Source of the DNA: a virus
Reading direction: 5' to 3' (one strand)
Length of the DNA: 42,887 bases
Virus record (IMG/VR): IMGVR_UViG_3300044980_000027
Coordinates: 1 to 42,887 of that record
The translations under genes were made by a program, and so were the position numbers. The notes under the pieces are model-generated. The model ran no database searches. It was given only the letters and a program-made list of their open reading frames with translations, and was not told the DNA's origin. Positions 23,961 through 42,887 of the stretch are shown here, one piece after another; the stretch's first letter is position 1, and each line of letters starts with the position of its first letter.

Positions 23961-24247
23961 GGGCGTCGCTTGTCCCAACGTTCGGGGTTGGTGAAGGCGA
24001 CCTTGACGCCCTCAAATTCGAAGCTCTCGGGGCCAATCTCGCCGACAGGGTTGAAGCTGTGCGCTGTCAGCGGATCCAGTTCGCGCATCAACTCGGCCCA
24101 CGCATAGTGTTGGGCTCGGCCGTCCGGGAAGATCACCTCGATGCGGATTTTCTCGCGATCCGGGATGTTCTTCATCGCTAGCCAGTAGCGAAGGTGGCGT
24201 ATCCAGTCGTTGAACCGAGCTGACTTATCGAACTGGGAGTCACTCAT
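23957..24247 (-). CDS. Hypothetical protein, 96 residues
   Basis: The start at 24247 overlaps the NADAR gene stop (ATGA). Small alpha/beta protein with the block EKIRIEVIFPDGRAQHYAWA and ESFEFEGVKVAFTNPERW. No recognised family. Linked to both neighbours by 4-nt overlaps. Confidence 0.6.
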   Translation of the reverse strand: MSDSQFDKSARFNDWIRHLRYWLAMKNIPDREKIRIEVIFPDGRAQHYAWAELMRELDPLTAHSFNPVGEIGPESFEFEGVKVAFTNPERWDKRRP

Positions 24248-25440
24248 CTCAAGAGTCCCCCTCCCCCGAGGGGTGGGGCTGGGGCGGCGGAGAGCAATTC
24301 GGTGCGCAACTCCACCCAAAGCTTGCCAAGCATGTTCTGCCCGTTGCCGTCAGCGCCCGCACCCCAAAAGGCGTCGCGCCACGAACCCTCGACCAGCGGG
24401 CGGTCGCCGGTCTCCAAGAGTTTGCGGTGAACGTACTCGTGCTGGTGGGCCTTAGTGCGAATGATCTCACGCATGAAGCCAACCTTCACCGCATCCCAAT
24501 CGGTGCGTTGAAGGTGCTTGTTCTCCTGCGCTAGCTTAAACGCTGCGTGCGCCGACAGCGCCGCCTTAACGCGGATCGCCATTGACGCCGCCGCAGGATT
24601 GTCTGCCGCGTCGCCGGTGCTGAATCGAAGCCAGTGATAAGCGGCCTCCGACGTGTCGAACACCCAGCGTCCCGCCCACGTTAGCTTGAACGCCGAGAAG
24701 TTGCTTAGCGGGTAGAAATCGCGCTCGTAGAAGTTCACCGGCCCATCCGTGTCCGGCTTCCACCCTTCCCCCACCCCTCCAGGCGGGGGAGCGACAGGTT
24801 CGCTTTCTGTCGAAACGCTTACATGTTCAGCGGACATGTTAAGCGGGTGATCTGGGGCATTCTCGATCAGCCTCTTAAGCCACTCATTGATGCGATAGTG
24901 CTGTGGCACGCCAAGTGACGCCGCACGGTTAAAAAGGACGGATAGCAGACATGCGTCTTTGTGGACTAACGGTCCTGGAAACGATTCCTGCTCGTCTGTC
25001 GCCCCTCCAAGCGGGGGAGTATCCTCCCGAAGCGGGTTTCCTTGAAGACCTTTCCGCTCCAGCAAGTCTATCGCTCGGTCACACATCGCCAGCGCCTTAG
25101 GAACGGCCGTGCGCGCTTCAGTGCTCTCTTTACGGATGATGTAGACAAGCTTGCGCAGCATGATCGCGAGGTCGGTGATGTCATGGGGCTCGGCCTGCGC
25201 TTTATCTTCTCCTCCAGGCGGGGCGACAGGATAGAGGGCACGAATAGTGTCGGCCTTGGTAAGCGCGATCTGCCATTCTTCAGCATATGCATGGTTCACT
25301 GCGACGCTCGCTGTAACGCGACCAGCCATCTCGGCGGCGACTGGATCAATCACCCGCGCGATCTCTTCCCTTGTCGGCAACCTCCAGGCGGGGGAGATCA
25401 GCATCCCCGGCGCGGAGCCGGTTTCGGATTTCGCAGTCAT
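24244..25440 (-). CDS. Modular protein with C-terminal NADAR (YbiA-like) domain
   Basis: The product has 398 residues. The C-terminal 150 residues (about 236-383) follow the NADAR pattern: YPLSNFSAFKLTW, DTSEAAYHWLRF, DWDAVKVGFMREIIRTKA, LLETGDRPLVEGSWRDAFWG and NMLGKLWVELR. NADAR domains act on ADP-ribose linkages or NAD-derived and riboflavin metabolites; some reverse guanine ADP-ribosylation of DNA by DarT-like toxins. The N-terminal 75 residues resemble phage Ea22-like segments (LPTREEIARVIDP). Modules are separated by PPGG (74-77), PPLGG (142-146) and PPPGG (218-222), each encoded by a repeated palindromic DNA element. Its ATG overlaps the TnpB stop. Confidence 0.82.
   Translation of the reverse strand: MTAKSETGSAPGMLISPAWRLPTREEIARVIDPVAAEMAGRVTASVAVNHAYAEEWQIALTKADTIRALYPVAPPGGEDKAQAEPHDITDLAIMLRKLVYIIRKESTEARTAVPKALAMCDRAIDLLERKGLQGNPLREDTPPLGGATDEQESFPGPLVHKDACLLSVLFNRAASLGVPQHYRINEWLKRLIENAPDHPLNMSAEHVSVSTESEPVAPPPGGVGEGWKPDTDGPVNFYERDFYPLSNFSAFKLTWAGRWVFDTSEAAYHWLRFSTGDAADNPAAASMAIRVKAALSAHAAFKLAQENKHLQRTDWDAVKVGFMREIIRTKAHQHEYVHRKLLETGDRPLVEGSWRDAFWGAGADGNGQNMLGKLWVELRTELLSAAPAPPLGGGGLLR
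24776..24788. repeat. Palindromic 13-mer repeat, copy 1
   Basis: CCTCCAGGCGGGG, followed by GGAGCGACAGG. One of three identical copies within 620 bp of the NADAR gene, plus a one-mismatch copy. Here it encodes the PPPGG linker directly before the NADAR domain. Confidence 0.8.
25004..25016. repeat. Palindromic 13-mer repeat, copy 2 (one mismatch)
   Basis: CCTCCAAGCGGGG, preceded by CTGTCGC. Encodes PPLGG at residues 142-146 on the minus strand. Confidence 0.75.
25211..25223. repeat. Palindromic 13-mer repeat, copy 3
   Basis: CCTCCAGGCGGGG, followed by CGACAGG as in copy 1. Encodes APPGG at residues 73-77. Confidence 0.8.
25381..25393. repeat. Palindromic 13-mer repeat, copy 4
   Basis: CCTCCAGGCGGGG, read in another frame, where it encodes SPAWRL at residues 16-21. 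The change of frame shows the DNA, not the peptide, is the repeated unit. A more degenerate relative (TCCCCCTCCCCCGAGGGGTG, 24256-24275) lies at the gene's 3' end. Confidence 0.75.
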
Positions 25441-26633
25441 GCTGCGACCTCCATGGTTCTCGTTTCATCGGACCCGTAATCGGGTTCCTCGGCGAGCTGT
25501 AACGCCGTGCTTCGGCGCAAGATGTTCTTCGCCGCGTTGATATCGGCATGTTCGTCATGTCCGCAATGGACGCAGAGAAAGCGCGCTTGGCTCTCGCGGC
25601 TTTGGGAATCGACCGCTCCGCACGAGGAGCAAGCCTGAGAGGTGTAGGCCGGGTTGACCTTGATCAGTGTCCCGCCGGTCGCCTTCAGTTTGTAGGCGAG
25701 TAGGCTAACAACGTGACCCCAGCCCTGGCTATGGATTGACCGGCTCAGGCCGCGATTGGCGAGCACCATGTTGCCGATTTTCAGATCTTCGACAGCGACC
25801 GTTCCAAAGCGCTTGGCGAGATCGGTCGAAACGCGGTGCGCCCAATCGGTGCGGATACGCCGTGCGCGGGCGTGGAGGCGCGCCACACGGGCGCGCTGCT
25901 TCAGGCGACGCTTGGAGCCCTTCTTGCAGCGAGCGAGCTTGCGCTGAGCCCTCAGGCGCTGGGCGACGACCGCTCCGATATGGGCCGGAACGCTGATTAG
26001 CCCGCCGCTAGAAAGCGCCAGCGTATTTGCAATTCCGCGGTCGATGCCGACAGCCGCCGGCGGCGCGCTAGCGAAGCCTTGAGCCGCACACGTGACGCTG
26101 ACGTGCCATTGCCCGCACTCTTCACGAAACGAAACCATCTTGGGGATGCCAACCAATGGCCGCGAGAGCCGAAGCTTGATCCACCCGGCGCCCCGGAGGC
26201 GGACGCGGCCCCACTTTGCATTGATCAGTTCGACGGGCGCATCCACGCTACGTAGCGTGAAGCCGCAGCCGTCGTCACGGCGCCGGAACGTCGGGTGCCT
26301 AGCGCGGCCGGCGAAGAACGCCGAGTAAGCGTAGTCCAACTGGCGGAGCGCCTCGTCCAGGGCGTGCCGAGGAACCGCAGCGATCCAGTCGACTTCGGCC
26401 CGAAGCGCGGTCAGCTCGTAGCTCTGGCGGATGTAGGAAAATCCATAGCCAGTGTTGCGGCGATATTGTCGGTACCAGTTCTCTCGCTGCTCTAGCGCCA
26501 AATTGTAGACGAAGCGGCAGGCTCCGCTAATCTGCCCCAGCCTCGCCGCTTGGGCTGCGGTCGGGGCAAGCCGATAGCGGTACGATCTGATGATCGCGGC
26601 CTCGGTGCTGGCGGGGGGAGTTGGGGCGGTCAT
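25437..26633 (-). CDS. tnpB: TnpB-type RNA-guided nuclease, standalone
   Basis: The product has 398 residues, usual TnpB length. The RuvC triad is present: D198 in AVGIDRGIANTLALSSG, E282 in VAVEDLKIGNM and D364 in HADINAAKNIL. A zinc ribbon lies between the last two (C335, C338, C354, C357). The N-terminal YRYRLAPTAAQAARLGQISGACRFVYN is the usual wedge start. No TnpA gene or IS200/IS605 ends are seen. The stop overlaps the NADAR ATG (ATGA), so it sits as an ordinary gene inside the leftward operon. TnpB cuts DNA guided by an omega-RNA normally encoded from its own 3' end; here that region would overlap the NADAR gene. Confidence 0.93.
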   Translation of the reverse strand: MTAPTPPASTEAAIIRSYRYRLAPTAAQAARLGQISGACRFVYNLALEQRENWYRQYRRNTGYGFSYIRQSYELTALRAEVDWIAAVPRHALDEALRQLDYAYSAFFAGRARHPTFRRRDDGCGFTLRSVDAPVELINAKWGRVRLRGAGWIKLRLSRPLVGIPKMVSFREECGQWHVSVTCAAQGFASAPPAAVGIDRGIANTLALSSGGLISVPAHIGAVVAQRLRAQRKLARCKKGSKRRLKQRARVARLHARARRIRTDWAHRVSTDLAKRFGTVAVEDLKIGNMVLANRGLSRSIHSQGWGHVVSLLAYKLKATGGTLIKVNPAYTSQACSSCGAVDSQSRESQARFLCVHCGHDEHADINAAKNILRRSTALQLAEEPDYGSDETRTMEVAA

Positions 26634-33878: not shown

Positions 33879-34081
33879 CCCCCGCCGACGCGCCTAAGGG
33901 GGTGACGTTCCGCTGCGGCCACGCGCGAGTCGCTGAGAACGCGACGGGCGGCGATCATCCGCGTTGCCGGCTGTGCCGCAACGTCTACCTGCGCGACTAC
34001 ATGCGAACTTATCGAGGCGGGTGGCCGTACAAGGGCGATTTGCCTAAGCCGAAGCACGATCCGTGGAGAGAACAAGCGTGA
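33875..34081 (+). CDS. Small zinc-binding protein, 68 residues
   Basis: C-G-H near the N-terminus and CRLCRN with a basic YLRDYMRTYRGGW helix; looks like a short HNH-related or zinc-ribbon DNA-binding protein. ATGA and GTGA overlaps link it to neighbours. Confidence 0.6.
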   Translation: MTPADAPKGVTFRCGHARVAENATGGDHPRCRLCRNVYLRDYMRTYRGGWPYKGDLPKPKHDPWREQA

Positions 34082-34608
34082 GTCGCTGGACTGGCTGGAA
34101 CGACGCCAACACGGAGCAGTGCCGCGTCTGGTACTACGTGGAGGGCCTGTCGGCGACAGCCATCGCGGCGCGGTTCGGCGTTGGGCGCGGCGCTATCGTG
34201 TCGAAAATGGCGCGCGTGTTTGGTCGTCTCGAAAAGAACGATATGACCGCTCGCCGAGTCGCCCACCGCATCAAGGGCGACATCGCGCTTCAGAACCGGC
34301 TCACGGCGGCTCAGAAGGCCATGCAGCGCGGTTCGACGCCGAAGCCTACACTGGCCCCACCCATCCCTGAAACGCTCGCCAGCGCCCGTCCTAGCGGCTC
34401 TCCCGAGCCAGTTCCGCTTCTATCCCTGCTCTGGTCCTCCTGCCGCTGGCCGGTGTCGGTTGTGCCAGCCGGGCAGTCGCACGCCGACATGAGGTTCTGC
34501 GGCGCGAGGAAGGGTGATGGGCCGTACTGCGCCGAGCACGCTGCGCTATCCGTGCAGCCGCGCAAGGCCGGATCGGAGCGGGTATTCAGGCTGGAGAGGC
34601 TGGGATGA
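34078..34608 (+). CDS. gcrA: GcrA-family transcription regulator
   Basis: The product has 176 residues, near the length of Caulobacter GcrA. The N-terminal HTH (WYYVEGLSATAIAARFGVGR, then GAIVSKMARVFGRL) and the C-terminal CRWPVSVVPAGQSHADMRFC, followed by PYCAEHA, are the two family hallmarks. Host GcrA binds sigma-70 region 2 and activates promoters, in part according to GANTC methylation. The phage copy may redirect host RNA polymerase. GTG at 34078 overlaps the previous stop (GTGA). Confidence 0.88.
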   Translation: MSRWTGWNDANTEQCRVWYYVEGLSATAIAARFGVGRGAIVSKMARVFGRLEKNDMTARRVAHRIKGDIALQNRLTAAQKAMQRGSTPKPTLAPPIPETLASARPSGSPEPVPLLSLLWSSCRWPVSVVPAGQSHADMRFCGARKGDGPYCAEHAALSVQPRKAGSERVFRLERLG

Positions 34609-34877
34609 CCCACCACTGCGAGCGCTGGACGGATGAGCAAGTGTTGGCTGTCCTCCGAGCCGACTACGCCGCCGTACCTGCTGTCGCGGCATCATTCGGA
34701 ATGTCGCCTAACGTGGCCTACAAATACCGTCTTAGCGGCTCTAAGCGCGGCGCTAGGTTACGGCGCGAGCACGCGATAGCGGGACCGTGGAAGTTTTCGT
34801 CAACGCCCTCGGTTAGCCCCATGGGGGCCGAGCGCGCCATGATCCGCGCCGCCATCCGGGGCGAGCACGTCGAATGA
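34605..34877 (+). CDS. Small HTH-like protein
   Basis: The product has 90 residues. RWTDEQVLAVLRADYAAVPA then VAASFGMSPNVAYKYRLSG reads as a helix-turn-helix of the GcrA/homeodomain-like type. Lies between GcrA and the methyltransferase with 4-nt overlaps. Confidence 0.6.
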   Translation: MTHHCERWTDEQVLAVLRADYAAVPAVAASFGMSPNVAYKYRLSGSKRGARLRREHAIAGPWKFSSTPSVSPMGAERAMIRAAIRGEHVE

Positions 34878-35695
34878 CCCGCCCCGTCGCCCTCGATCTC
34901 TGCTGCGGGCTGGGGGGGTGGGCCTCGGGCCTGATCGCGGCCGGCTGGCACGTCATTGGCGTGGACATCGAAAACATGTTCGCCGCGCTTGGCGAGCCTA
35001 TGCCGCCCGAGCATTTCGAGCTGGTGCTGGCCGATATCTGCGAGATCAACGGCGCCGACTACGCGCATGTGTCGCTCATTGTTGGCTCGTCGCCATGCCA
35101 GGATTTTTCGTATCGGGCTATGCCTTGGCGTCGCGCCAAGGCCCTGCACGCGCCGTTCCTCGGCATATTCCTGTTCTGGCAGCAGTTCCGCATTCAACGT
35201 GAGGTCTGCGAGGCCAAGGGCGAGTTCGTGCCGATGGTGGTCGAGAACGTCCGTGGCGCCCAGCCATGGGTGGGACGCGCGGCGTGGAACGCGGGCAGCA
35301 TGTACTTCTGGGGCGACATCCCGGGGCTCATGCCGCAGCACAAGCACGTCAAGGTGGGTTCCTTTCGCTTCGACGGCAGCGGTGGCTCGTTCCAGTCAGC
35401 CTCTGTCGCCCAGCATGTCGAGCGCAGGACAGCACCGGGAACGGACTGTAGGTTGACGACGGTAGAGCCGCAGGAAGTCCGCCAGCGCTGGTTCAACGAT
35501 GGGCCGCGCACGCCTGACGGCTTGGCCTCGTCCTCGTCCTCGTCACCGCGCCGCAAGGCCGCAAGCGCCAGAATCGCAATGATCCCGTTCGAAATCTCAA
35601 GCTGGATCGGCCGCTGCTACCTGCCCGACCCCGCGCCGGACGCGCGGGTGGGGGAGCGGCCGACCGACGAGCGTCTGGAGCGACGGAAGAGCTAG
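34874..35695 (+). CDS. DNA (cytosine-5)-methyltransferase
   Basis: The product has 273 residues. Motif I ALDLCCGLGGWASGL (6-20) binds S-adenosylmethionine; motif IV GSSPCQDFS carries the catalytic Cys75; motif VI VVENV (122-126). It is shorter than typical Dcm-like enzymes and the target-recognition part is compact. It could protect phage DNA from host restriction or alter host transcription. It ends overlapping the converging HNH gene by 4 bp. Confidence 0.88.
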   Translation: MTRPVALDLCCGLGGWASGLIAAGWHVIGVDIENMFAALGEPMPPEHFELVLADICEINGADYAHVSLIVGSSPCQDFSYRAMPWRRAKALHAPFLGIFLFWQQFRIQREVCEAKGEFVPMVVENVRGAQPWVGRAAWNAGSMYFWGDIPGLMPQHKHVKVGSFRFDGSGGSFQSASVAQHVERRTAPGTDCRLTTVEPQEVRQRWFNDGPRTPDGLASSSSSSPRRKAASARIAMIPFEISSWIGRCYLPDPAPDARVGERPTDERLERRKS

Positions 35696-37381: not shown

Positions 37382-37531
37382 ATGGAACCAAAGACCGCTC
37401 GGCTCAATCTAGTGCTCTCTCCCGAGCAAGTGGACCGCCTCGACGCCTGGCGCGCCAAAGCCCGCATCCGCTCACGCTGTGATGCTATCCGCCGCGCGAT
37501 TGACGAGATGATTCAGCGGCCGGCGCGATGA
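37382..37531 (+). CDS. Ribbon-helix-helix DNA-binding protein
   Basis: The product has 49 residues. TARLNLVLSPEQVDRLDAWR, then a helix SRCDAIRRAIDEMIQ, the CopG/Arc/MetJ layout of a strand and two helices. It probably binds the dyad just upstream and controls both divergent units. Confidence 0.72.
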   Translation: MEPKTARLNLVLSPEQVDRLDAWRAKARIRSRCDAIRRAIDEMIQRPAR

Positions 37532-37860
37532 GAGCTGGCTTCGCAGCGCGTAAATCCAAGTTCGGCGCCGTTCGCACCGAAGTGGACGGCATCACCTTTG
37601 CCAGCAAGAAAGAGGCTCGGCGATATGGCGAGCTGAAGCTGATGGAGCGCGCCGGCATGATCAGTGAGTTGGCGCTTCAGCCCCGGTTTCCGCTCTATAT
37701 CGGCGATGACCTGATCTGCACCTACGTGGGCGACTTCCTCTATCGCGCGAAATCCGGCGACGTGATCGTTGAGGACGCCAAGGGCATCGAGACTCCAGAG
37801 TTTAAGCTGAAGCGTAAGCTTTTGAGAGCGATCCACGGAATGGAGATTGTCACTGTATGA
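37528..37860 (+). CDS. DUF1064-type nuclease (PD-(D/E)XK-like)
   Basis: The product has 110 residues. SKFGAVRTEVDGITFASKKE, A-R-R-Y-G-E-L-K-L, ISELALQPRFPLYIG, CTYVGDFLYRAKSGDVIVED and AKGIETPEFKLKRKLL follow the DUF1064 pattern. The acidic and lysine residues (E in KKEA, D in VGDF, E-D-A-K) form a PD-(D/E)XK-like site. Possible Holliday-junction or end-processing enzyme. Confidence 0.8.
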   Translation: MRAGFAARKSKFGAVRTEVDGITFASKKEARRYGELKLMERAGMISELALQPRFPLYIGDDLICTYVGDFLYRAKSGDVIVEDAKGIETPEFKLKRKLLRAIHGMEIVTV

Positions 37861-38069
37861 CCGACGACGGCCTTCCCCGCGCATCCAATCCTTGGCCTCA
37901 CCATATCGAGCGCGAATCACCCGGAGAACGCCGAGCCAGACTCCACAAGGATTTGCTAGCTCGACTGAGATCGAGATACCCGGCGACTCATCCGTTGGAT
38001 CACATGTGGAGCGCCGATTACGTCGAGGACGTGCGGCGCTGGTATGCGCTGGGCTCCAGCCACCCATGA
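37857..38069 (+). CDS. Hypothetical protein, 70 residues
   Basis: Begins MTDDGLPRASNPWPHHIERE, then basic helix GERRARLHKDLLARLRSRY and HMWSADYVEDVRRWYALG. ATGA-linked on both sides. No family recognised. Confidence 0.6.
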   Translation: MTDDGLPRASNPWPHHIERESPGERRARLHKDLLARLRSRYPATHPLDHMWSADYVEDVRRWYALGSSHP

Positions 38070-38389
38070 GGGTTTATCTCTCGCTCTGGCATGGTCTGCA
38101 ACCGTGGCCCTATCCAGAAAACTGGCACGCCATCGCAGCTGGAATAGCCCATGACCACGGCTTGACCTTCGAGGACATCACGGGGCCGAGTCGTTCGGAT
38201 CGCGTCAGCCGGGCTCGGCAGCACGTCATGTACGCTCTCAGCAAGAGGGGCAACTCTTCTGCTTGGATCGGTCGCCAGCTCGGCCGCGAGCACTCGACGG
38301 TGCTCTACGGCATCGATGCCCATAAACGCAGGGTCAGCGATTTTATCGCCCGCGCCTGTGGTGCTGAAGAGAAAGAAAAGAAGAACTGA
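38066..38389 (+). CDS. DnaA domain-IV-like DNA-binding protein
   Basis: The product has 107 residues. DITGPSRSDRVSRARQHVMY, ALSKRGNSSAWIGRQLG and REHSTVLYGIDAHKRRV reproduce the HTH and signature of the DnaA C-terminal domain (family form G-R-D-H-T/S-T-V-L). There is no AAA+ ATPase part. It could bind origin DnaA boxes as an initiator-like protein or sequester host DnaA. It lies directly beside the 566-bp structured region. Confidence 0.82.
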   Translation: MRVYLSLWHGLQPWPYPENWHAIAAGIAHDHGLTFEDITGPSRSDRVSRARQHVMYALSKRGNSSAWIGRQLGREHSTVLYGIDAHKRRVSDFIARACGAEEKEKKN

Positions 38390-38955
38390 GCGCGTGGCCG
38401 GCACGCCCCGCTTGCCCAGCCCTTTGATTAGGCGGCTGCGCGGGGCTTGACGATAATCCCGAACACCCTAGTCTGGACATGCAAACCCCGAGGTCTGGTT
38501 AGAGCCAGTCCCTCGGGGCGGTGATCGGGGTGAACGATCACGAAGCGCTTGCAGGCCCGCAAAGTATATGACCGGCGCCGGCAGAACGCAACACCCCGAG
38601 GAGCCGATGATGTGGCTCTAACGGGTTTGCGATCTCCCCCAAAGGATCGAACAAAGCGCTGGCTCTGGTGTCCCCATTCCATCCAGCGGCCTGTACGGTG
38701 TCGGGCAACCCCCGGAACGGTCGGGAGCGGCAGTCTGAGTCAGTCGGGATGACCTCCGATCCTCACCTGTCGTGAGAGCGCCGAAAAAAGCTCTCGATTG
38801 GTGGCGCAGGGACAATGCGCCAGGGTGATCGAAAGACACCCGAAGGAGACTGAGTACGCGGGGCGCTCGCCCTCCTCATGGTCAGAGGCTCGCGGAAGGC
38901 TCCCAAAGGGCCATACCGGGAGGCGGAAAGGGGGGAGCTATGCTAGAAGGATCAC
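38390..38955 (+). other. 566-bp gene-free region dense in stem-loops (structured RNA or origin)
   Basis: No frame here has both a ribosome site and protein-like content. Perfect stems include GCCCCGC/GCGGGGC (38405/38440), CCCCGAGG/CCTCGGGG (38486/38511), GTGATCG/CGATCAC (38521/38535), CCGGCGCCGG (38572), CGCTGG/CCAGCG (38657/38683), GAGAGC/GCTCTC (38774/38790) and TGGCGCA/TGCGCCA (38802/38816). The stem at 38823-38841 is closed by C-GAAA-G, a GNRA tetraloop only on the plus strand, which supports a plus-strand RNA. The alternative is a replication origin beside the DnaA-like gene. Confidence 0.6.
38481..38630 (+). repeat. Long imperfect inverted repeat with alternative pairings
   Basis: GCAAACCC (38481-38488) and GTTAGAGCC (38498-38506) are complementary to adjacent blocks GGGTTTGC (38623-38630) and GGCTCTAAC (38614-38622). 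CCCCGAGG occurs at 38486 and again at 38594, either side of its complement CCTCGGGG (38511). Each arm can form its own hairpin (38486-38518; 38587-38631) or both arms can pair with each other. Confidence 0.75.
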
Positions 38956-39015
38956 ATGACCCCCGAACAACGCATCCAAGCCCTCTTGCGCAAACACATC
39001 ATCGCGCTAAGCTAA
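38956..39015 (+). CDS. Possible 19-residue peptide
   Basis: AAGG six bases before an ATG opens MTPEQRIQALLRKHIIALS. Short amphipathic helix. The only support is the ribosome site and the good spacing to the next gene. Confidence 0.3.
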   Translation: MTPEQRIQALLRKHIIALS

Positions 39016-39036
39016 ACCAAACCAGCAGGAACCAGC

Positions 39037-39213
39037 ATGGCCAAGGATCGCTATCAAGACCAGCCGATGGAATCGGTCGCCAGCCCCGGCGTTCGTATCT
39101 CGAAGCCCAAAGTGACCAGCGAAGGCCGCATCAAGACCTTCGGCGGCGGCTCCAGTGTCGCAAAGGGCGATCTGGCTCCTCGCACTTCAGCGCCGATCAT
39201 CAATGGCCGCTAA
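39037..39213 (+). CDS. Small basic protein, 58 residues
   Basis: AGGA upstream of the ATG. MAKDRYQDQPMESVASPGVR, then IKTFGGGSSVAKGDLAPRTS. Likely disordered. First of three short Lys/Gly-rich genes before the terminase. Confidence 0.55.
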   Translation: MAKDRYQDQPMESVASPGVRISKPKVTSEGRIKTFGGGSSVAKGDLAPRTSAPIINGR

Positions 39214-39325
39214 GAGCAAATCCAAGCCAGCCCCAAAAGCTGCTCCCAAGGGCGGCAAGAAGGGCGGACTTTTCAGTGGCAAAGCTACCCTAAAGGGGAA
39301 CCTCAAGGGCAAAGGCTGGGAGTGA
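39203..39325 (+). CDS. Lysine/glycine-rich protein, 40 residues
   Basis: MAAKSKSKPAPKAAPKGGKK then GGLFSGKATLKGNLKGKGWE. About one third is Lys. Overlaps both neighbours. A histone-tail-like composition suggests nucleic-acid binding. Confidence 0.55.
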   Translation: MAAKSKSKPAPKAAPKGGKKGGLFSGKATLKGNLKGKGWE

Positions 39326-39884: not shown

Positions 39885-40142
39885 ATGGCCCGAACAAAAG
39901 GCTCTCCGAACAAGGCGACCAAGGCGAGGGAGCAAATCCTCTCGGCTGCTGGGCTAGTTCCGCTTACCTACATGCTCAAAGTCCTCCGCGACGAGGATCA
40001 GCCCCACGAAGAGCGCATGAAGGCCGCGATAGCCGCTGCGCCTTATGTCCATCCTCGTCTTTCAACCGTTCAGCATCAAGGCGACGACGATAAGCCGGTT
40101 GCCGTTCGCATCATTGAGCGCCGCGTCGTGAAAGCCGGATGA
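39885..40142 (+). CDS. Putative terminase small subunit
   Basis: The product has 85 residues. MARTKGSPNKATKAREQILS, then helices LVPLTYMLKVLRDEDQ and ERMKAAIAAAPYVHPRLS; the pattern of short proteins directly before terminase large subunits in alphaproteobacterial phages. Would recognise DNA for packaging. ATGA overlap with the large subunit. Confidence 0.65.
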   Translation: MARTKGSPNKATKAREQILSAAGLVPLTYMLKVLRDEDQPHEERMKAAIAAAPYVHPRLSTVQHQGDDDKPVAVRIIERRVVKAG

Positions 40143-41437
40143 TCAAGAACGGCGTCCTCACCATCGACACGGCCGAAGTGTTCGAGCCGCTTCTTAAGCC
40201 AGCTCGCTATAAAGGCGCACACGGCGGCAGAGGCAGCGGCAAGAGCCACTTCTTCGCCGAACTGATGGTTGACGACAGCCTCAGAATTCCAGGCCTCAGG
40301 AGCGTCTGCATCCGTGAAGTCCAGCGCACCCTCAAGGAATCGGCCAAGCGGCTGATCGAGGACAAGATCATCAGCCTCAATGTTGGTGATCGCTTCCGTG
40401 TGCTTGATGATAGGATCGAAACGCCAGGCAATGGCGTGATCGCGTTTCAGGGCATGCAGGACCACAACGCCGAGACCATCAAATCCCTGGAAGGCTTCAG
40501 CCGTGCATGGGTCGAAGAGGCGCAAACGCTGAGCGAACGCAGCTTGACGCTTCTCAGGCCCACGATCCGTACCGAGAACTCGGAGCTTTGGTTCAGCTGG
40601 AACCCAAGGCGCAAGATCGACGCGGTTGACCATTTCCTCCGCAATGATCCCCCGAAAAGCGCTCTCGTCGTGCAGGCCAACTGGCGCGACAATCCATGGT
40701 TTCCAGATGTGCTGCGCGCCGAGCGCGACGAAGACCTCAGGAAGCGCCCCGATCAATGCGAGCACATCTGGGAGGGCGCATATGTTAAGGTATTCCAAGG
40801 TGCGTACTTCGCCCAACAGATCATGGACGCCCGCAAGGAAGGACGAATCACACGGGTTTCAACCGATCCCCTGCTTCGTAAACGCGCGGTGTGGGACATT
40901 GGCGGTTCGGGCCGAGATGCCGATGCAAATGCGATCTGGATTGTTCAAAGTTCTAACCGGGAAATCCTCGTGCTCGACTATATCGAGGGCCAGGGCCAGA
41001 CGCTTGGCTACTACGTCAATGAGCTGAGGGAGCGCGGACACAGCAATGCGCTCTGCGTCCTTCCGCATGATGGCGTGAACTCGAATACAGTCACCGGCAA
41101 GCGCTTCGAGGAGCATTTGAACGACGCCGGCTTTGAGACTAAGGTCGTGACCAACCAGGGGAAGGGCGCGGCGATGATGCGGATAGAGGCTGTCAGACGG
41201 CTTTTCCCACGCATCTGGTTCAACGAAGCGACAACTGAGCCAGGGTTGGATGCCCTGGGCTCCTACCATGCCAAGATCGATCCTGTGCGGCAGAACGATC
41301 TTGGCCCTGAGCATGACTGGTCAAGCCACGGCGCCGATGCGTTCGGGCTGATGTGCGTTGAATACGAGCAGCCCAGAGTGCAGCGCTCGGAAGATCGCTA
41401 CAGCCGCAGAACGCCATCGCGGAGCGTGTGGGTGTGA
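40139..41437 (+). CDS. Terminase large subunit
   Basis: The product has 432 residues, the packaging motor ATPase and nuclease. Walker A HGGRGSGKS (residues 28-36), Walker B-like AWVEEAQ (123-129), coupling SWNPRRKIDAVDHFL. The nuclease acidic residues are D253 in VWDIGGSGRD and D400 in SSHGADAFGL. The type resembles Terminase_3 (P22 gp2/PBSX-like) enzymes, consistent with headful packaging and circular permutation. Confidence 0.93.
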   Translation: MIKNGVLTIDTAEVFEPLLKPARYKGAHGGRGSGKSHFFAELMVDDSLRIPGLRSVCIREVQRTLKESAKRLIEDKIISLNVGDRFRVLDDRIETPGNGVIAFQGMQDHNAETIKSLEGFSRAWVEEAQTLSERSLTLLRPTIRTENSELWFSWNPRRKIDAVDHFLRNDPPKSALVVQANWRDNPWFPDVLRAERDEDLRKRPDQCEHIWEGAYVKVFQGAYFAQQIMDARKEGRITRVSTDPLLRKRAVWDIGGSGRDADANAIWIVQSSNREILVLDYIEGQGQTLGYYVNELRERGHSNALCVLPHDGVNSNTVTGKRFEEHLNDAGFETKVVTNQGKGAAMMRIEAVRRLFPRIWFNEATTEPGLDALGSYHAKIDPVRQNDLGPEHDWSSHGADAFGLMCVEYEQPRVQRSEDRYSRRTPSRSVWV

Positions 41438-41712
41438 ATTACGCTGACCACCCCAAATCCATCGGTGAGATCAGGTCCGACAAAAGCCAGGACTGCAAGG
41501 ACTGGACACCTCGCGATGTGCTGATCGATCTGCTGCGCGAGATCGACGCCGGAACGCGCTCGCCAACAGCCCTTGTCCTTTGCTGGGCGCAGCAATGCGG
41601 CGAGGCTGAAGCCGGATTTAGTACGCACTACTCGGCTTCAGCGATCACCGGCCTGCACGCGCTCGGCTTGCTGACGCGCTGCATTCACCGCATGAACATA
41701 GCGACCGATTGA
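41434..41712 (+). CDS. Small protein between terminase and portal
   Basis: The product has 92 residues. The GTG at 41434 overlaps the terminase stop (GTGA); another GTG at 41428 is possible. Helical, DWTPRDVLIDLLREIDAGTR then TALVLCWAQQCGEAEAG. Its stop overlaps the portal ATG (TGATG). Unknown role in packaging or head assembly. Confidence 0.6.
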   Translation: MNYADHPKSIGEIRSDKSQDCKDWTPRDVLIDLLREIDAGTRSPTALVLCWAQQCGEAEAGFSTHYSASAITGLHALGLLTRCIHRMNIATD

Positions 41713-42887
41713 TGGCTGACGACGCCAACCCAAACCAGCGCCCAGCCGATCCCGTCACCAACGATGGCGGTTATCAAGGCTCGGACCTGCTCAGCCGCAT
41801 CGGCGAATGGGACAAGCTCCTTGATGCCCACTGGATGGCTTGGCGCAAGGAAGCGCTGCAATGCTATGATTTCGTGGCTGGGCGTCAGTGGACCCGGCTA
41901 GAAATCGATGAGATGGAGAGCCTGTCGCGCATCCCCATCGTGTTCAACCGCATTGCCCCGACGATTGATGCGGTGTCCGGCGCTGAGATCAGCAATCGCC
42001 AGCAGGTGCAATATTTCCCAAGGCAAGTCGGCGACACAGCCATAGACGACATTCTGACGCAGGGCGCGGAATGGATCATGGACGAGTGCGAAGGCAACGA
42101 GGAGGACTCAGACGCCTTCAGAGACGCCTTGATCTGCGGGATAGGCGCGACCGAGACACGCCCAGATTTCGATAAGGACAGCCGGATCACCAAGGAGCGA
42201 GTCGATCCGCTGGAATTGGCTTGGGACCCGTCTTCACGCAAAGCCTGCTTTGCCGATGCCAAGTACCTCAGGCGTAAAATCCCAATGTCCAAGACCAGCT
42301 TCAAGGAGATGTTCCCGAATTGGGCCTACGAGGGCGATCACGATCTATCCAGCCAGCAACCTGTGATCGTGGACCCCAGGATCAGGTACGACGGGACCAA
42401 CGAGGATGCGTTTGGCAACAAGGACGAAGTGATCGTCCGGGAATATCAGTGGTATGACAACGAGCCCCGGCATCTGGTTGGGGGGGCGCATGCGGCATTG
42501 ATCCGGGGACAATTCCCGAATGTGCCGATGCAATCTGGCTATCCGAAGCTGACGCCGGAGCAACATGACGAGCTGAAGTCTCGGTATCCTGACGCCCAGA
42601 CCGCGCCGATCAAGGAGAAGGTGTTCTATCGCTGCTTCGCGGCCGGCAATCAGACGGAAAGCACCCGGATTGAAGCTGAAGACTTTACCTACAAGGCGAT
42701 CACCGGCAAGCGTGATAGAAACAAGAACTGGTGGTACGGCTTAGTCCGGCCGATGATGGACCCGCAGAAGTGGGCCAATAAGCTCTATTCCCAACTGATG
42801 CACATGTTCCGCACCAATGCGACGGGCGGAATCATGATGGAGGAAGGCGCGGCGCTAGATCAGAAAGAGTTCGAGCGCACATGGTCC
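41712..42887 (+). CDS. Portal protein, N-terminal part (continues at 1-1010)
   Basis: The first 392 codons of the portal gene run off the right window edge and rejoin at base 1. P22-like portal blocks visible: LQCYDFVAGRQWT near residue 50, IPIVFNRIAPTIDAVSGAEI, and WWYGLVRPMMDPQKWANKLYS around residue 340. The full product is about 687 residues. At the repeat mismatch this copy encodes DQKEFERTW while the left copy encodes DQIEFERTW. Confidence 0.92.
   Translation, partial: MADDANPNQRPADPVTNDGGYQGSDLLSRIGEWDKLLDAHWMAWRKEALQCYDFVAGRQWTRLEIDEMESLSRIPIVFNRIAPTIDAVSGAEISNRQQVQYFPRQVGDTAIDDILTQGAEWIMDECEGNEEDSDAFRDALICGIGATETRPDFDKDSRITKERVDPLELAWDPSSRKACFADAKYLRRKIPMSKTSFKEMFPNWAYEGDHDLSSQQPVIVDPRIRYDGTNEDAFGNKDEVIVREYQWYDNEPRHLVGGAHAALIRGQFPNVPMQSGYPKLTPEQHDELKSRYPDAQTAPIKEKVFYRCFAAGNQTESTRIEAEDFTYKAITGKRDRNKNWWYGLVRPMMDPQKWANKLYSQLMHMFRTNATGGIMMEEGAALDQKEFERTWS
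42766..42887. repeat. Terminal redundancy, right copy
   Basis: Matches 1-122 except A at 42865 for T at 100. See the left copy. The difference changes Lys to Ile in the portal and must be a read error or a population variant. Confidence 0.93.

Follow-up and report, generated by a model that had tools for sequence, protein, structure and literature searches.

A 566-bp noncoding gap with an unusual predicted plus-strand fold at the early/late gene junction of a phage genome

In the phage genome analyzed here, an IMG/VR record of 42,887 bases that was taken whole (the window), a noncoding gap of 566 bp (38390-38955) separates the early genes from the packaging genes and is co-directional with both. 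The gap contains no terminator-like site on the plus strand, and its plus strand folds better than is usual for this genome. Our preferred reading, to which we give a probability of roughly 0.38, is that the gap encodes a lineage-specific structured RNA preceding the late genes, either a leader or an intercistronic RNA. Such an RNA acting in cis would be the simplest functional reading: the segment shares its strand with the late genes and immediately precedes them, shows no terminator-like site on the plus strand, and ends beside a ribosome-binding site. The gap, which joins the early module with its DUF1064 and DnaA-domain genes to the terminase, portal, and capsid genes of the late module, would then be transcribed on the plus strand. 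The predicted fold would form in the cell and act in cis on the late genes, where it might govern how far transcripts read through, how they are processed, or whether ribosomes reach the binding site just 3' of the outermost helix. If real, the RNA would be a large phage RNA of no known class at the early/late switch and could be used to ask how late genes are timed; for now, it is a single orphan sequence, moderately supported by statistics, for which the origin reading has been removed.

The genes relevant to the gap and its surroundings are as follows.

24244-25440, minus strand: 398-aa protein with a NADAR domain (E 6e-22)
25437-26633, minus strand: TnpB-like gene with OrfB_IS605 and Cas12f1-like TNB domains (Pfam)
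34063-34608, plus strand: homologue of the GcrA cell-cycle regulator (Pfam, E 1.9e-17)
37528-37860, plus strand: DUF1064/Holliday-junction-resolvase-like gene of the early module (PF06356, E 1.7e-18; phrog_190, E 8.7e-35)
38066-38389, plus strand: 107-aa protein with the DnaA C-terminal DNA-binding domain only (PF08299, E 3.9e-13; phrog_27829, E 4.7e-06)
38390-38955, plus strand: noncoding segment, candidate structured RNA (no coding signal; fold measures)
38956-39015, plus strand: putative 19-codon ORF, MTPEQRIQALLRKHIIALS (read from the sequence)
39037-39213, plus strand: first scored gene past the gap, 58 aa (gene caller)
39885-40142, plus strand: terminase small subunit, weak match (phrog_641, E 4e-05)
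40139-41437, plus strand: terminase large subunit (Pfam PF04466, E 3.9e-29)

Measured to the first scored gene, the gap extends to 647 bp (38390-39036), and the gene caller places nothing in this interval. Hexamer coding scores were negative for all listed ORFs in 38390-38955, ten peptides among the longest in the six frames matched nothing in Pfam or PHROGs, and tblastn of gap peptides against the relatives gave no convincing match, all of which bears out the earlier note's judgment that the segment holds no credible gene. Although some ORFs of 67 to 84 aa are present, the negative scores, the unmatched peptides, and the lack of relatives at the protein level make a missed or decayed gene the least probable of the readings considered. 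No terminator-like site was detected on the plus strand within 38390-38955, and a promoter search limited to the sigma-70 type found no consensus promoter in the region; a weak promoter-like TTGACG-N16-TAGTCT is visible by eye at 38447-38474. The putative ORF at 38956 has a good ribosome-binding site as read from the sequence, a Shine-Dalgarno-like AGAAGGA a few nucleotides 5' of its ATG, and the gene at 39037-39213 has no relative or family match in PHROGs or the relative scans.

The earlier note had offered a phage replication origin as one of two explanations for the gap, and it correctly placed a DnaA-domain-IV-like gene at the left edge: the Bac_DnaA_C gene stops at 38389. This neighbor and the inverted repeats in the gap are what speak for an origin bound by the DnaA-domain protein, a reading that we now regard as very improbable. 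The Bac_DnaA_C domain spans residues 23-84 of the 107-aa protein (Pfam E 3.9e-13) and the Pfam scan found no AAA+ domain, so the protein is not a complete initiator; it may still be a DNA-binding regulator. The gap contains no DnaA box at 0-1 mismatch and a single box at two mismatches, where the genome averages 2.7 per 566 bp, and AT content stays at or below 48% in every 60-bp window of the region and next to it, in keeping with the earlier observation that clear boxes were missing and AT-rich DNA was scarce. Cumulative GC skew, which had been proposed as a check on the origin, takes no turn at the gap. In EBPR podovirus 2 (JF412295), a similar gene (gp7) is followed by the next gene 11 bp later within an ordinary gene run, and this context also contradicts an origin.

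The earlier note had based its RNA reading in part on at least ten perfect stems of 5-8 bp. When stem counts and fold energies of the 566-nt segment were scored against shuffles (dinucleotide shuffles for the inverted repeats), perfect inverted repeats of at least 7 bp numbered 17 versus 9.7 (P = 0.03) and those of at least 8 bp numbered 6 versus 2.6 (P = 0.06), with no excess at lengths of at least 9 or at least 10 bp. The stems had thus been overstated, since their number is near chance at the GC content of the region. The folding free energy of 38390-38955 gave a modest signal (z -2.44 on the plus strand and -1.79 on the minus strand); the strongest plus-strand 200-nt window, 38440-38639, reached z -3.55 (-2.74 on the minus strand), and the 3' half alone was not more stable than shuffles (z -0.71). 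Ensemble diversity was 65 on the plus strand and 124 on the minus strand; shuffles averaged 142 ± 35 and never fell below 84.

Since gaps in three other loci (L109, L117, and L120) scored as folded yet appear coding by eye, fold z-scores alone mislead in GC-rich phages. Our sterner control consisted of 566-nt windows of the same genome (n = 292 others), which are mostly coding and similarly GC-rich. Against this background, the plus strand of the segment ranked 7th of 293 for ensemble diversity and approximately 21st of 293 for GC-corrected free energy, and its tendency to leave A unpaired (A-in-loops) fell in the top 2.4%; each measure taken singly reaches the 2-7% level only. The three measures are nearly uncorrelated, and their combination placed the segment 2nd of 293, with 1 of the 292 background windows as extreme, whereas the combined score on the minus strand was average. 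Given that the score was highest for segments starting at 38365-38390 and collapsed once the 5' arm of the closing helix was removed, the left end of the fold would lie near the stop codon of the DnaA-domain gene. These measurements provide moderate evidence for a plus-strand RNA fold with this left end.

The anatomy of the candidate RNA was taken from the predicted fold of 38390-38955 by itself.

38392-38425, plus strand: 5' side of the closing helices (GCGTGGC; CGCCCCGC; CAG; CCTTT), pair probabilities 0.96-1.00
38456-38531, plus strand: domain A, a long hairpin, helix probabilities 0.97
38572-38704, plus strand: domain B, a predicted 9-bp stem around three sub-hairpins
38727-38841, plus strand: domain C, predicted tandem hairpins at 38727-38773, 38774-38795, 38802-38822, and 38823-38841
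38842-38865, plus strand: predicted 3' side of the closing helix core (GAAGG; CTG; GCGGGGCG)
38937-38943, plus strand: predicted 3' side of the outermost helix (GCTATGC), context-dependent

The outer helix is predicted to pair 38392-38398 with 38937-38943, so that its 3' arm adjoins the ribosome-binding site of the next ORF, and the core closing helix is predicted to pair 38404-38425 with 38842-38865. Domain A contains CCCCGAGG...CCTCGGGG at 38486-38518 and falls within the region's most stable 200-nt window (38440-38639). Domain C keeps pair probabilities above 0.9 in the wider contexts tested and of 0.77-0.99 with the 5' part cut off; its last hairpin, GGGTG-A-TC-[GAAA]-GA-CACCC at 38823-38841, has a 2-bp and a 5-bp stem with a bulged A and is the hairpin previously recognized; its GNRA loop exists in the plus sense only. 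Flanks of ~100 nt abolish the outer helix (38392-38398) in the predicted fold, and flanks of at least 250 nt abolish all closing helices and the domain B stem, although the local hairpins persist. The global architecture would therefore depend on where the transcript starts and ends. Two long-range complementarities can be named, as had been claimed (GTTAGAGCCA/TGGCTCTAAC and GCAAACCC/GGGTTTGC), but neither is used in the predicted ensemble, and a 10-bp repeat arises by chance in about one in six shuffles.

Searches of IMG/VR, GTDB species genomes, phages, and plasmids (the last two by blastn) returned no homologue of the gap, and neither the loci of TerL relatives from IMG/VR and GTDB species genomes nor 385 genomes from the class of a Bradyrhizobiaceae bacterium yielded one. 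Nothing convincing came from loci carrying relatives of DUF1064 or of the 64-aa gene at 39325, from the Erf-relative loci (three only), from scans via the DnaA-domain gene and the 39037 gene, or from a search for the exact GAAA-hairpin pattern; a bait made by translating straight through the noncoding DNA, which reaches close copies only (about 90% or more), returned nothing. Single-sequence covariance models of domains A, B, and C, run over the relatives' loci and 49 whole records, gave no convincing match, the one weak match in EBPR podovirus 2 (25051-25127; E 0.0065) lying away from the gap in its terL region. Two candidate relatives were rejected, L003:716-750 because it falls inside a coding ORF and G001:3430-3445 because the match covers 16 bases only. 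Given the limited reach of single-sequence covariance models and of pattern scans that detect close copies only, this absence is no proof of uniqueness. The homologue search called for by the earlier note thus yielded no relative at the DNA or structural level in the collections searched. Without a homologue there is no covariation, so the RNA reading retains moderate, strand-specific support from the fold, but a new ornate RNA is a possibility rather than a result.

We compared gaps up to 3 kb upstream of terL in 39 loci of TerL relatives. The largest gap in this interval had a median of 279 bp, and that of the window was the largest without long ORFs among the 39 loci. Among named phages, Bradyrhizobium phage ppBeUSDA76-2 (61.5%) and EBPR podovirus 2 (60% identical) come closest by TerL. 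The latter has a 310-bp gap of unrelated sequence upstream of its terminase genes; its DnaA-domain gene gp7 is 55% identical to that of the window over 51 aa but does not sit beside its gap. Since the relatives are also gapped upstream of terL, the position is shared while the sequence is not: a gap near the early/late junction is common, but one of this length is unusual. The loci of the nearest phages by terminase (70% TerL identity) lack the segment, and in one of them, L003, ORFs fill the corresponding interval.

These comparisons also bear on the possibility that the gap is ordinary intergenic DNA, with promoters, a packaging (cos/pac) site, or repressor sites, or a leftover of a variable region, and with no functional large fold. 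We consider this reading nearly as likely as the leader RNA. The region is hypervariable and absent from the nearest relatives, its stem counts are close to chance, other windows of the genome match its individual fold scores, the terminase operon begins 1 kb downstream, and in its most stable part (38440-38640) both strands fold well, which is what inverted repeats in DNA would give. Plain intergenic DNA accounts less readily for the largest ORF-poor gap of the 39 loci (566 bp, or 647 bp when counted as far as the first scored gene) and for a combined plus-strand fold signal that is rare (2 of 293) and strand-specific. The leader RNA, for its part, has to contend with the lack of a homologue at any level and hence of covariation, with single fold measures at the 2-7% level and an ordinary 3' half, with the loss of the closing helices and domain B when flanks of at least 250 nt are added, and with a promoter search that found no consensus.

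A stand-alone large structured RNA, made in trans from the locus and forming a new class of the size of ROOL (whose length is comparable to that of the segment), is unlikely. The well-defined global fold predicted for the plus strand of the segment, closed by helices at either end of the gap if folded alone, and the enrichment in unpaired A would suit such an RNA, but homologues were not found, the closing helices depend on context, and the locus has neither a terminator at the 3' end nor a consensus promoter. Still less likely is the specific form in which a ~550-nt ornate phage RNA with one closed multi-domain fold and no recognizable relatives in present-day collections would act in trans during infection.

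Comparison with known RNAs did not place the segment in a family. In lambda-like phages, a late-operon leader (6S RNA or Q-dependent leader) lies between the early and late genes and is co-directional with them; the gap resembles it by position only, in that it precedes the late genes on the same strand, whereas neither a Q-like gene nor a late promoter was identified here. Rfam run with permissive filters gave no match for 38390-38955, either at the gathering threshold or at E ≤ 10, so that ROOL, GOLLD, and HEARO, the first two of which had been suggested for an Rfam scan, are not supported. Group I and II introns, riboswitches, tRNA, and tmRNA were likewise set aside for want of an Rfam or ARAGORN match, and ARAGORN found no tRNA within the window. 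ROOL is a large structured RNA of phages and prophages that often lies near tRNA islands, and GOLLD, often longer than 800 nt, is also located near tRNA islands (PMC12286853). The segment is like both in being a candidate large phage RNA but differs from both in that Rfam gives no match and the window lacks a tRNA, although proximity to tRNA islands is common rather than obligatory for ROOL. HEARO is a large bacterial structured RNA, which has no Rfam match here, and the sole TnpB-like gene identified (25437-26633) sits 12 kb from the gap.

The genome encodes terminase, portal, a Phage_capsid_3 major capsid protein, an Erf/Rad52 annealing protein, NinB, and a GcrA homologue; a long end repeat is absent. 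Because GcrA is a cell-cycle regulator in alphaproteobacteria, the phage probably infects an alphaproteobacterial host. The GcrA gene adjoins a methyltransferase-like gene (34874-35695; C-5 cytosine methylase, weak match), and the pair suggests interference with alphaproteobacterial cell-cycle control. The portal gene (41712-42887) runs off the right end of the record, and a 325-aa ORF begins at position 33 (within positions 1-1010). The record may be a circular genome cut within the portal gene; the frames, however, do not join directly.

Genes upstream of Erf at two other loci (L206, 2654-3079; L204, 2352-2852) appear by eye to encode DnaA-C-terminal-domain-like proteins, which suggests that such proteins are common in this phage group. 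Stretches of weak coding score in five other phage loci (L037, 505-1532; L036, 1078-1847; L058, 688-1208; L032, 10133-10477; L033, 1193-2163) have in common a repeated element of ~85-100 bp (73-88% identity) that is unrelated to the segment in the window, occurs in more than one copy in some loci, and is possibly a conserved intergenic element. In the window, the NADAR gene lies immediately downstream of the TnpB gene, overlapping it by 4 bp, and the two proteins are unrelated.
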